Assembly (NCBI GenBank): GCA_020061125.1
Contig: JAGUYV010000311.1
Location: 1 to 5,867, forward strand
Direction of reading: 5' to 3'
Source: a bacterium
GTDB lineage: Bacteria; UBP15; UBA6099; DSWB01
DNA length: 5,867 nt
The stretch's first letter is position 1. Each line of letters starts with the position of its first letter. A program made the translations under genes and the position numbers. This document shows, one piece after another, positions 995 to 5,867 of the stretch. The notes beneath the pieces are model-generated. The model was given only the letters and a program-made list of their open reading frames with translations. It was not told the origin of the DNA and searched no databases.

Positions 995-2377
995 ATGAAG
1001 ACCGTGGCGCTCGTCAATCCCCCGGCCCGCGGCGTGGTGATCCGGGACTATTTTTGCAGCAAAACCTCGCAGGCCGCTTACATCAACCCGCCCGTGGATT
1101 TCGTGTGCTTGAGCGGCAGGCTCGCGAAACGCTTTGATGTGCGCCTGGTGGACGCCGTGGCCGAACGCCTGTCCACGGCCGCGTGCCGCGCGCGCATCCA
1201 AAAGCTTAACCCCGAGGCCGTCATCGGTCTCACGGGCTTTGTGTCCTGGGACCAAGACGCGCCCTTTTTCGAATCCCTGGACCTGCCTGTAATCCTGCTC
1301 GGCGACATCCTGTTGGAAAACCCGGCGCAGCGCCTCGCGGACAACCCATGGGCCGATGCCTTCGCTCTGGATTTCACGGTGGATGACCCGGTCCGCTATC
1401 TGCTCGGCGCCAGAGATTCACTGCCATCCATGGCTTATCGCCGGGACGACACAATCATCGCTCCGGATCCCGCGCGCAGTTCGGTTCACACATTCGAGAT
1501 TCCGGTTCCCCGCCATGAGCTGTTCCTGCCCCTGGACTACCGCTATCCGTTTGTTCTGGGCAAACCCTTCGCCAGCGTGCTGACCGAGTACGGGTGCCCT
1601 TTCAACTGCGGGTTCTGCATCATGGGCCAGCTCGGGCACAAATCAAGACCCGTCAGCAATGTCGTTCCCGAACTCGAAGCGTTGCGCAAACGCGGGGTGC
1701 GCGACATTTTCTTCATGGACCAGACCTTCGGCTCCGACACCAACAGGACACGCGAAATTCTGGATGCGCTTTCGCAATTCAAACCGCGCTTCCGATGGCT
1801 GTGCTTCAGCCGCGTGGACCGCGCGGACGAAGGTCTGCTGCCGGACATGAAACGCGCGGGCTGCCATACGGTGATTTACGGCATCGAGAGCGCCGACGAC
1901 GCCCTTCTCAAAACATACCGCAAGGGCACAACGCAGGCGCAGATACGGGCCACATTCGCCGCGGCGCGTCGCTGCGGCATCCGCACCGTGGGCACCCTTC
2001 TTTTCGGCCTGCCCGAAGACACCGTGGCTTCCTGCGAACGAACCATCGAATTCGTGAAGGCCATCCCCTGCGATTTCATTTCCGTGAACATCGCCGTGCC
2101 GCGCATGGGTACGCCCATGCGCGCGGACGCGGTGCGCCGCGGCATCGTGCCCGCGGGCCTCGACCGCATGGACCAGTCCGGCGCGTTCATCTCCATGCAG
2201 GCCGGAGACTTCACCACGGACGAACTGCTGCGGCTCAAGAGAAAAGCTCTGCGCGAGTTCTATCTGAACGCTCCCTACGCGGCGCGCCGCCTTCGCGGCA
2301 TCAGATCCCTGGATCAGTTCCGCATCGAAACGCGCCAGGGGATCTCTCTATTGCGCAACTTCCTGAAAGGCGGCTGA
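995..2377 (+). CDS. Cobalamin-binding-type radical SAM enzyme (B12-rSAM), substrate unknown
   Basis: The 460-residue protein has the two-domain plan of B12-binding radical SAM enzymes, many of which methylate unreactive carbons or phosphorus or rearrange lipid and antibiotic precursors. Residues 1-135 form the Rossmann-like cobalamin domain, opening MKTVALVNPP, with VRLVDAVAERLS at 49-60. The histidine of the classic DxHxxG cobalamin ligand motif is absent, as in many class B methylases. The radical SAM core starts near 190: the cluster cysteines are C201, C205 and C208 in CPFNCGFC. FFMDQTFGSD (239-248), YGIES (295-299) and GTLLFGLPED (333-342) are the later core strands that line the SAM site. 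The C-terminal 60 residues are basic and helical. The ATG at 995 is chosen because family homology begins at once; no good ribosome site precedes it, but a short upstream ORF ends in an ATGA overlap with it. It heads the plus-strand unit with two GT-C genes, which suggests a lipid or glycan substrate (inference). Confidence 0.9.
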   Translation: MKTVALVNPPARGVVIRDYFCSKTSQAAYINPPVDFVCLSGRLAKRFDVRLVDAVAERLSTAACRARIQKLNPEAVIGLTGFVSWDQDAPFFESLDLPVILLGDILLENPAQRLADNPWADAFALDFTVDDPVRYLLGARDSLPSMAYRRDDTIIAPDPARSSVHTFEIPVPRHELFLPLDYRYPFVLGKPFASVLTEYGCPFNCGFCIMGQLGHKSRPVSNVVPELEALRKRGVRDIFFMDQTFGSDTNRTREILDALSQFKPRFRWLCFSRVDRADEGLLPDMKRAGCHTVIYGIESADDALLKTYRKGTTQAQIRATFAAARRCGIRTVGTLLFGLPEDTVASCERTIEFVKAIPCDFISVNIAVPRMGTPMRADAVRRGIVPAGLDRMDQSGAFISMQAGDFTTDELLRLKRKALREFYLNAPYAARRLRGIRSLDQFRIETRQGISLLRNFLKGG

Positions 2378-2470
2378 ATCGCCCTGGAATCCCAAGCGCG
2401 CCATAACCGGCTCATCCTGCTCGCGCTCGCCGCGGTTCTTGCCGCGTCCGCATTCGCCCAGTCGCGCGGC

Positions 2471-5400
2471 ATGAACAGGCCCATGACCACCTACCGCGAC
2501 GGCAACGGCGTGAGCCAGGCGCGCATCGCGTGGAACTATGAAAAATACGGCCTATGGGAAAACCGGCTCATCCCAATTTTCGACAAGTCTCCGGCCCCGG
2601 AACTCACGCCCATCTTCCGCATCAAGTATTCGGAAAACGAGTTCTTCCACCTCATCGGCGACAAAGTGGTCATGGCGCACTATCCGCCCACATTGAGCCT
2701 CACGCTTTACGCCGCGTTCAAAATCTTCGGCTACTCGCCCTTCACAACCCGGCTCGTGCCCATCGTCGTGACCCTGCTCACGCTCCTGGTTTTCTTTCTC
2801 ACCGCGCGCCGCTTGTTCGATCCCCTCACAGCGCTCATCGCCGTTTTTCTTTTCGCCATGAGTCCCATCGTGCTCGCCTACGGGCAGATGCCGGACACCA
2901 TCATTTTCAGCCTGCTCTCGTTTCTGTCCGCGCTTTACTTCACCCTCGCATGGGAAGAAACGCGGCGCGCAATGCATCTGGCGGGCGTGCTGTTCAGCAT
3001 TGTGTTCGGCTGCTCCTACGGGTGGTTTCCGTACTTTCTGGTTCCGCTGCTCGCCGGGCATCATCTATTTTTCAGGCGCGGAAAATTCTCCTGGGGGTAT
3101 TTCCTGGGCGTGCCCGCCGCGGCGTCGCTGGTTCTGGCCTCGTTCGTTGCGTACCTGTTCTGGGCCATCGGTCCCACGGCCCTGCACGACTGGCTCTCGG
3201 CGTACGCCAGCCGGCGCGGGGATGTCATCATTGTGAACGAAACCCAGTACGCCATCACCACATTCCAGTTTCTCAAGACCATGATTCTGCGCGTTCCGTT
3301 CCATTACACCTGGCCGGTGTTCCTGTTCGCGGCGGTGTGGCTGATAGGCATGCGCGGCCGTGCGGATTGGCGGCCCGGCGCGCATCGAGCGGGCGCGCTT
3401 CTCGTCATGCTCGGCTTCGGCGTGTTCCCCATGCTCATGTTCAAGCAGGGCGCGTACATCCACGGGTTTTATTCCTACCTCTTCGGCCCCGTGGTCTGCC
3501 TGTGCGCCGCGGCCATGATGCAAAAGGCGCTGCACATGTCCTGGCTCCCGCGCATTCTCGCCGCAGCCGCGGCCGCGCTTTTTCTTGCCGGAACATTCCC
3601 GCGCACCCAAACCATCACCTCGTACCTGTCCATCGAGAAAGCCATCAAATTCAACGATTTCCTGGACACCGTGGCCGGAGACAAGACCGTTATCGTGCAG
3701 GATGTGTTCAACCTGCACACCCTGCTCTGGTCCAGCACCTTCATTGATTCGTTTGTGCTCCAGAACGAGCTTTCGCACGAATCGTTTCTGAAAACCATGA
3801 AAGAACTGCCGCCTGGCTACAAACTGATCTACATACACCTGCCCCTGCCCGACGCCATGCGCCTGCAGGGAACCGAGAAAACCCTGGCCTACCTTTACAG
3901 AAACTTCGAGTACCGCAAAAAGGGCCATTACATCATTTTCGACATGGACCGGAAGAGGGTCTTAAATCGAACGGACGATTCCGCAAAGCCTCTGCTGAAT
4001 TTCCAGAACAAAATCGCGCTCCATGATTTTTCCATAAATACCGCTGACCCGAAAAAACCTGCCACGGCGCGTGCCGGGGAGCGCGTCACTCTCACCTACC
4101 GGTGGCGCAGCATCAACCTGCTCGATAACGACTACATCATGCTGGTGCGCATCGTTGCCGGCCTTTTAAGCAACGACCACGAGCCGGTTCACAGTACATT
4201 TCAGACTTCGCACTGGCGGCCCGGCGACTCGGTGGACGAATCGTATGTGCTCGATATTCCCGCCACCACGCCGCCCGGCGATTACCCGGTTGAAATCGCG
4301 GTCTGCACGCCCGGCGAAGAAACTTCGTTCTGCCTGGAGCCGGACCATGGCTGGAAAGACGGAAGGCACCAATTCACCAAAATCGGAACGCTGCGCGTTC
4401 TGCCCGCGCATGGCGTCACGCCCGTTTCCCCAGACCCCAAGCTCGTGGCCGCCACGGCCTCCATTGACGATTACATCGCATTCTACAATCTCAAGCAGTT
4501 CGAATTTTTCATTGATTTTATCGGCGTGGATCCCACTTTCGACACCATGATCAAGGGCTGGAAGGATATCCTGCTCGGCGACAAGGACCAGGCCATGCGC
4601 AAGCTCGAGACCTACTCGCGCCGGTTCGCACAGTTCAGCATGATTGAGAAAATGGTGTCCACGGCCATGCAGGAAGTTCCGGCCATGCTGCGCATGCAGC
4701 TCATTGGCCTGTATCTCGAAAAGCGCCGGTTTTTCAGCGCGGGCCGCGAAGCGGCGTCCATCGCGCTCAACCTGCCGCAATCCCACCGGGCGTATGAAAA
4801 ACTGGGCGCGCAAATCGAGAAAAACACGGCCGGGATCAAAGTACCGGCAATTGCAGCAGCGCTCATTCTTCTGTCCGATCATTTCTATGCGCGCACCATG
4901 GAAATGCGTCCCAACGACTTCTCCATGCGATTGAACGCGGCCGAACATTACATGCGCACCGCGCGGCCCGAAAAAGCCTTTGCGCTGCTCCGCCACAACC
5001 TTGGCGGCGTGCGCAACGACGATCTCCGAGCCGCGACCCTTTTCGCATATCACGCTCTGCGCCAGGGCCGCGTCGCGGATTATCGCCTGGCCGCGCTCCG
5101 CCTGGAACTGATCAGAAGCAGAAAGGGCGCATCCAGCCTCGACAGGCTCGTGTTCCAGTCCATCATGGACCGTAAGGATCATGTCACTCTCGAGGCGTTT
5201 TTGAACCAATTGCCGGACTCCGCCTCACGCAGGGATTACTGGCTCCGCGCCCTGGATCTGTTCTCGGACGCGCGGGATTATTCACGGCTCATCCTGGTTC
5301 TCGACATGCTCGATCCGGAAACTCTGGATTTGCCGGACGAGGACTACGCGCGGCTCGCCGCGTTTTACGAAATCATGGCCATGAAAGCGCACGAAAACGG

Positions 5401-5614
5401 CGCGGACGCGGATGCGATGAAACTTTATGAAACCGCGCACAGGCTGAACCCCGGCGCGACCGGCGTGATGTACAACCTTGCGGTGCTGTACCTCAAGGAC
5501 GGCCGCCCGGACCGCGCGCGCGACCTGCTGGAAAAACTCCTGGCCCAAAATCCGGACGATGCCGGGGCGCGCGCACTGCTGGAACGCATCGCGGGAAAGG
5601 CGCATGTCCCATGA
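2471..5614 (+). CDS. GT-C (GT39/ArnT-like) glycosyltransferase fused to a beta-sandwich-like region and TPR tail
   Basis: From the first ATG the protein has 1047 residues in three parts. Residues 1-385 resemble GT-C membrane glycosyltransferases of the PMT/ArnT/GT39 type, which take sugars from polyprenyl-phosphate donors on the outer face. They show the loop acidic residue D10 in TTYRDGNGVSQA, AHYPPTLSL at 69-77, and about ten hydrophobic segments between 95 and 375. Residues 385-500 form a soluble extracytoplasmic region. Residues 505-645 look like a beta-sandwich, with HWRPGDSVDESYVLDIPATT then PPGDYPVEIAV, a pattern seen after the membrane part of some bacterial glycosyltransferases. Residues 655-1047 are helical, with clear TPR-like repeats at about 960-1035 (DADAMKLYETAHRLNPGA, YNLAVLYLKDGRPDRARDLL). 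The first membrane helix expected before D10 is encoded in the same frame at 2411-2461, upstream of this ATG, but that stretch lacks a standard start codon, so the true start is probably near 2378-2384. No ribosome site precedes 2471. The stop overlaps the next gene as ATGA. Sugar and acceptor are unknown. Confidence 0.85.
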   Translation: MNRPMTTYRDGNGVSQARIAWNYEKYGLWENRLIPIFDKSPAPELTPIFRIKYSENEFFHLIGDKVVMAHYPPTLSLTLYAAFKIFGYSPFTTRLVPIVVTLLTLLVFFLTARRLFDPLTALIAVFLFAMSPIVLAYGQMPDTIIFSLLSFLSALYFTLAWEETRRAMHLAGVLFSIVFGCSYGWFPYFLVPLLAGHHLFFRRGKFSWGYFLGVPAAASLVLASFVAYLFWAIGPTALHDWLSAYASRRGDVIIVNETQYAITTFQFLKTMILRVPFHYTWPVFLFAAVWLIGMRGRADWRPGAHRAGALLVMLGFGVFPMLMFKQGAYIHGFYSYLFGPVVCLCAAAMMQKALHMSWLPRILAAAAAALFLAGTFPRTQTITSYLSIEKAIKFNDFLDTVAGDKTVIVQDVFNLHTLLWSSTFIDSFVLQNELSHESFLKTMKELPPGYKLIYIHLPLPDAMRLQGTEKTLAYLYRNFEYRKKGHYIIFDMDRKRVLNRTDDSAKPLLNFQNKIALHDFSINTADPKKPATARAGERVTLTYRWRSINLLDNDYIMLVRIVAGLLSNDHEPVHSTFQTSHWRPGDSVDESYVLDIPATTPPGDYPVEIAVCTPGEETSFCLEPDHGWKDGRHQFTKIGTLRVLPAHGVTPVSPDPKLVAATASIDDYIAFYNLKQFEFFIDFIGVDPTFDTMIKGWKDILLGDKDQAMRKLETYSRRFAQFSMIEKMVSTAMQEVPAMLRMQLIGLYLEKRRFFSAGREAASIALNLPQSHRAYEKLGAQIEKNTAGIKVPAIAAALILLSDHFYARTMEMRPNDFSMRLNAAEHYMRTARPEKAFALLRHNLGGVRNDDLRAATLFAYHALRQGRVADYRLAALRLELIRSRKGASSLDRLVFQSIMDRKDHVTLEAFLNQLPDSASRRDYWLRALDLFSDARDYSRLILVLDMLDPETLDLPDEDYARLAAFYEIMAMKAHENGADADAMKLYETAHRLNPGATGVMYNLAVLYLKDGRPDRARDLLEKLLAQNPDDAGARALLERIAGKAHVP

Positions 5615-5867
5615 CAGCGCTGACTGATATGCTGAAACGCAATCAAGGCCTGCTGGCTGCATGTATCGTCTTCGCGGCCGCGGTTCTGCGCGTGGCCTTC
5701 GCGGGCCAGTTCGCGTTTTTTATTGATGAACTGCACGCCGTGAATTTCACGCGCGGCGCCCTTGCCCAGGCCATGCGCCTGCTGCCCGAAACCCCGGGCA
5801 CCGCGCCTCTGGATTATGCGCTCGTGAATCTTCTTCAACGCGTGTCCCTGTCTGAATTCTGGATGCG
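5611..5867 (+). CDS. 5' part of a second GT-C-like membrane glycosyltransferase, cut by the window end
   Basis: The ATG at 5611 overlaps the TGA of the preceding GT-C gene (5612-5614) in an ATGA junction, and the frame is open for 85 complete codons to the window end. Residues 14-32 (LLAACIVFAAAVLRVAFAG) form a hydrophobic first helix preceded by K9 and R10, which fits a cytoplasmic N-terminus. QFAFFIDELHAVNF follows, with the D39-E40 pair where PMT/ArnT-type enzymes carry their catalytic loop aspartate. GTAPLDYALVNLLQ at 63-76 stands where such proteins have the HPP-type loop before the next helix. The order of helix, acidic motif, proline-containing loop and helix matches the preceding gene and supports a GT-C assignment, though only the N-terminus is visible. 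An alternative in-frame ATG lies six codons in. The function is likely transfer of a lipid-linked sugar to an outer-face acceptor. Confidence 0.7.
   Translation, partial: MTALTDMLKRNQGLLAACIVFAAAVLRVAFAGQFAFFIDELHAVNFTRGALAQAMRLLPETPGTAPLDYALVNLLQRVSLSEFWM

Follow-up and report, generated by a model that had tools for sequence, protein, structure and literature searches.

Where does translation of a membrane glycosyltransferase begin when its reading frame offers no canonical start codon ahead of the first membrane helix? The question is raised by a contig of 5,867 nucleotides (C4; analysed over its whole length and called the window here), which belongs to a bacterial draft genome of 4.1 Mb, distributed over 513 contigs and 78.8% complete. 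The plus strand of the window encodes a radical SAM protein of 460 amino acids (995..2377; PF04055, 64 bits), which contains the cluster motif CPFNCGFC and is read from ATG 995 to the TGA at 2375-2377. It is followed by an open reading frame of 1078 codons (2378..5614, plus strand; stop TGA 5612-5614) for a membrane glycosyltransferase of the GT-C type with C-terminal TPR repeats (5399..5590; PF14559, 51.5 bits, cut-off 25).

A second GT-C gene (5611..5867, plus strand) begins with an ATG that overlaps the stop codon of the first. This 4-base ATGA overlap (5611-5614) is a standard coupled junction, unlike the one between the radical SAM gene and the first GT-C gene. The last 99 bases of the contig (5769-5867) are identical to one end of contig C184 (L094 1-99), indicating that the second GT-C gene runs on into C184. 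On the minus strand, a divergent family 2 glycosyltransferase is encoded at 61-855 (PF00535, 91 bits; the best NCBIfam model is ArnC-like, with a score below its cut-off), which may supply the GT-C enzymes with their polyprenyl-phosphate sugar donor.

The GT-C gene lacks a canonical start codon at its 5′ end

The frame of the GT-C gene is open from the base that follows the radical SAM stop codon (TGA, 2375-2377), and this stop lies in the same frame. Both points had been made in a sequence-only reading of this DNA, whose coordinates proved correct; a frame common to both genes is a one-in-three coincidence. A codon scan also bore out that the 31 codons at 2378-2470 include no ATG, GTG or TTG in the GT-C frame. 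The first canonical start is the ATG at 2471-2473, which is located downstream of the first membrane helix (TM1) and has no Shine-Dalgarno (SD) sequence (anti-SD duplex of -1.7 kcal/mol). When all plus-strand frames between 2196 and 2470 are considered, the only canonical starts are TTG 2351, which precedes the TGA within the radical SAM coding sequence, and TTG 2439, which belongs to another frame. A start hidden in another frame and displaced by an indel was rejected, because neither of the other two frames has an ATG, GTG or TTG between 2196 and 2438. Elsewhere in the same genome, 540 of 6645 coding windows of 31 codons (8.1%) are free of these three codons.

Near-cognate codons are present in the stretch. 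ATC 2378-2380, directly adjoining the stop, and CTG 2384-2386, the preferred candidate, had both been named as possible rare starts, but they are not the only ones, since ATC 2414 and CTG 2417 are also in frame; the latter two fall within the first membrane helix. By chance, 28% of coding stretches carry one CTG or ATC in their first three positions and 3% carry two, and the mere presence of these codons is thus weak evidence. An SD-like AAGGCGG (2367..2373, plus strand) is found inside the 3′ end of the radical SAM gene, four bases before ATC 2378 and ten before CTG 2384, exactly where the sequence-only reading had placed it. Its anti-SD duplex of -7.1 kcal/mol is stronger than that of 53% of unambiguous ATG starts and is reached by 3.5% of background sites, so that an SD at a usable distance from a near-cognate codon is present. 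A short hairpin can be drawn at the junction with the SD in its stem and the TGA in its loop; a special RNA structure was nevertheless rejected, as folding is no better than that of shuffled sequences (z 0.52).

Coding potential of the 5′ stretch and the first membrane helix

The stretch 2378-2470 is real coding sequence, as indicated by its codon score, by homologue alignment and by the modelled TM1. Genome-wide statistics, including the training of the codon model, were based on sampled contigs of the same genome, about 0.8 Mb, which is an upper bound because some of these contigs may be partly masked. The in-frame score of 0.35 bits/codon equals the median of coding stretches (coding mean 0.30, out-of-frame mean -0.46 bits/codon), and only 1.6% of out-of-frame shadow stretches score as high. 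Among 610 genes of this genome with an upstream stop, the start-less overhang at 2378-2470 ranks second by score. Only one scores higher, a run of 11 codons rich in Lys and Glu ahead of an open reading frame of 117 codons, while those ranked below are shorter or resemble untranslated sequence. No comparable start-less overhang was thus seen in any other of the 610 genes scored in about 0.8 Mb, and start-less coding 5′ ends are rare in this genome. With no second example in this sample, non-canonical starts receive no independent support from the genome; infC (TIGR00168), sought to check near-cognate initiation within the same genome, was not found in this 78.8% complete assembly.

The first membrane helix, LILLALAAVLAASAFAQ (2411..2461, plus strand), was assigned by hydropathy, homologues, a modelled helix at residues 2-29 and alignment to GT-C structures. 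It precedes the first extracytoplasmic loop (YRDGNG), in which Asp41 (2498..2500) is invariant in the homologues. Three genes, found in genomes of a single family and showing 24-28% identity, are the nearest GT-C relatives; one of the records bears the name Candidatus Coatesbacteria. In the numbering of the extended frame, where ATG 2471 is residue 32, local alignments to them set in at residues 8-11, although one of the three was matched only from residue 97 in one search. S24, P35, D41 and N43 are invariant in all four proteins. Homologues starting at the equivalent of ATG 2471 and lacking the first helix were looked for, but the homologues identified keep TM1. In G098, the first ATG is located 14 residues before the helix, a position that agrees with a start near 2378-2384.

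Two of these homologues, G040 and G098, carry one in-frame TAG each, at different positions (L058 6889-6891; L079 5841-5843, minus strand), and both align to a Tyr of the intact third. Recoding of TAG was rejected for these Coatesbacteria, where it is an ordinary stop (49/116 and 30/82 genes), and a search in this context returned no PylS above the cut-off. The simplest reading is that each TAG arose by its own nonsense mutation. The junction itself has no close relative in the genome contig collection (searched with a single-protein query), in plasmids or in seven genomes of the phylum; within the same order, the genes of the best-matching radical SAM proteins are followed by different ones.

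The PMT_2 domain (PF13231; 2684..3094) exceeds its curated cut-off with 37.3 versus 26.1 bits. Residues 1-551 were modelled with AlphaFold from four sequences; the overall quality is poor (mean pLDDT 47), with a pLDDT of about 70-76 over most of the helix at residues 2-29. Despite this low confidence, structure alignment supports the GT-C fold: the model matches 44 solved GT-C chains, including oligosaccharyltransferases, Pmt, ArnT and PglB, with Z values of 7.4-15.9 over 262-395 residues, the next unrelated entry reaching 4.8. All 44 alignments start at model residues 1-15, which indicates that the residues encoded before ATG 2471 form TM1. The protein thus has TM1 and, in the loop that follows it, a conserved acidic residue; TM1 is present only if 2378-2470 is translated. 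In GT-C enzymes, the catalytic acid resides in the loop after TM1 (PMC7801869). With Asp41 as the predicted catalytic acid, a protein beginning at ATG 2471 would be mis-oriented: this start would delete TM1 and misplace the catalytic loop. Eleven other GT-C loci of the genome were inspected, nine of them with a complete 5′ end, and all nine have a canonical start at or before the first predicted helix; in one of these, the hydropathy window opens two residues before the first ATG. Homologues and fold alignment therefore both uphold the claim that the protein includes the helix ahead of its acidic loop.

Initiation at the junction and its alternatives

Bacterial ribosomes can scan around a stop codon for an SD after termination and then reinitiate (PMC5972666), and natural non-canonical starts are known from infC (ATT/ATC) and sigR (GTC) (PMC5472188). 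Together with the SD-like site, these precedents place the probability of a near-cognate start within the few codons after the TGA at about one half, with CTG 2384 preferred over ATC 2378. The GT-C gene would then be intact and encode a membrane glycosyltransferase whose TM1 derives from 2411-2461 and whose C-terminus carries TPR repeats. Ribosomes that finish the radical SAM gene would linger near the TGA, where the end of their 16S rRNA would bind AAGGCGG (2367-2373), and reinitiation with fMet-tRNA would follow on CTG 2384 or, less probably, ATC 2378. The expected output would be a low yield of GT-C protein that depends on ribosomes terminating at the end of the radical SAM gene. CUG accounts for 0.024% of bacterial starts (PMC11497404), which corresponds to about one gene in a genome of this size. 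Several observations count against such a start. The SD-like site lies within the upstream coding sequence and could be incidental, given its frequency among background sites; a CTG start yields only 0.86% of AUG (PMC11497404); near-cognate codons are common by chance; and no second example occurs among the 610 genes. We infer the exact start codon, the coupling and the correctness of the sequence.

An error in the consensus or assembly, or strain mixing in the draft genome, could hide an ordinary start in 2378-2410, an unlikely explanation that still has to be taken seriously. It fits the fragmented and incomplete state of the assembly, the uniqueness of the start-less junction in the gene sample, as would be expected of a rare error, and the canonical starts of the nine complete GT-C genes in the same genome. 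On the other hand, the exact 99-base overlap between C4 and C184 points to a short-read k-mer assembly, in which base errors are normally rare, and the reading frame is otherwise intact across its 1078 codons. Less probable again is a true loss of the canonical start by mutation, leaving a weakly expressed gene or incipient pseudogene with residual near-cognate initiation. An intact frame without a start codon is what such a loss would leave behind, and the homologues that TAG interrupts in two Coatesbacteria genomes of one family suggest that the GT-C gene may be dispensable. However, the 1078 codons show no other lesion, and the downstream gene begins within the ATGA overlap, an arrangement that expects the GT-C frame to be translated to its end.

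Initiation at ATG 2471, giving a protein without TM1, is very improbable: it has in its favour that this is the first canonical start, but it has no SD, the 31 codons upstream are coding, and TM1 is present in the homologues and in all matched GT-C structures. The earlier judgement that ATG 2471 is the wrong start is thus very probably correct. Read-through of TGA 2375, which would produce a radical SAM-GT-C fusion alongside the free radical SAM protein, is hardly credible, and the same holds for its partial form, in which the radical SAM protein would be both free and the N-terminal cytoplasmic domain of the GT-C protein, with CTG/ATC reinitiation as the other product. The single frame without an intervening start would allow it, as would topology, the N-terminus of TM1 being expected in the cytoplasm. 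Yet the frame is shared in one of three cases by chance, and the radical SAM protein matches HpnJ, its closest NCBIfam model (119 bits, below the cut-off of that model), as far as position 459 of the 472 in the profile, which leaves 12 residues to the TGA. The protein thus ends at the normal C-terminus of its family, and more genes of this genome end in TGA than in any other stop (345/545), which makes a fusion unlikely. Fused homologues were sought, and none were found among the relatives looked at; both the Coatesbacteria relatives and the radical SAM loci of the same order keep the genes separate. Of the sequence-only interpretation, the helix, the wrong ATG 2471 and the missing canonical start were retained, whereas its read-through fusion was weakened.

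Relation to known systems and implications

The genes infC and Streptomyces sigR likewise have no ATG, GTG or TTG before their true N-terminus, probably with lower expression as a consequence. Their starts were established by experiment and feed IF3-linked regulation (PMC5472188), whereas the GT-C start is a proposal from sequence analysis. The putative near-cognate start would be unusual for one gene but would constitute no new kind of system. With ArnT, PglB/STT3 and Pmt, the GT-C protein has in common TM1, an acidic first loop (Asp41), HYPP, the PMT_2 domain and structural similarity with Z values of up to 15.9, but it adds a large further region and the C-terminal TPR repeats. The TMTC proteins, animal GT-C O-mannosyltransferases, display the same order of parts, a GT-C membrane domain followed by C-terminal TPR repeats, and have their catalytic Asp in the TM1-TM2 loop, as predicted for the window protein. 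In contrast to TMTC, the window protein is bacterial, contains a single D and only about two recognisable repeats. The DD motif found in EL1 of TMTC is absent, the corresponding residues being RDG in the window protein and MDF or QDF in its homologues, and the Pfam search at E 0.001 gave no match to DUF1736 of TMTC.

As a rule, gene-prediction programs recognise no start codons other than ATG, GTG and TTG. The enzyme would therefore be annotated from ATG 2471 without TM1; its topology would be wrong and its catalytic loop out of place. Should the proposed start be real, the junction would add to a rarely documented class, in which a gene naturally starts at CTG or ATC and its initiation is tied to the stop codon of the gene before it, and scoring start-less coding overhangs could reveal further cases across genomes.
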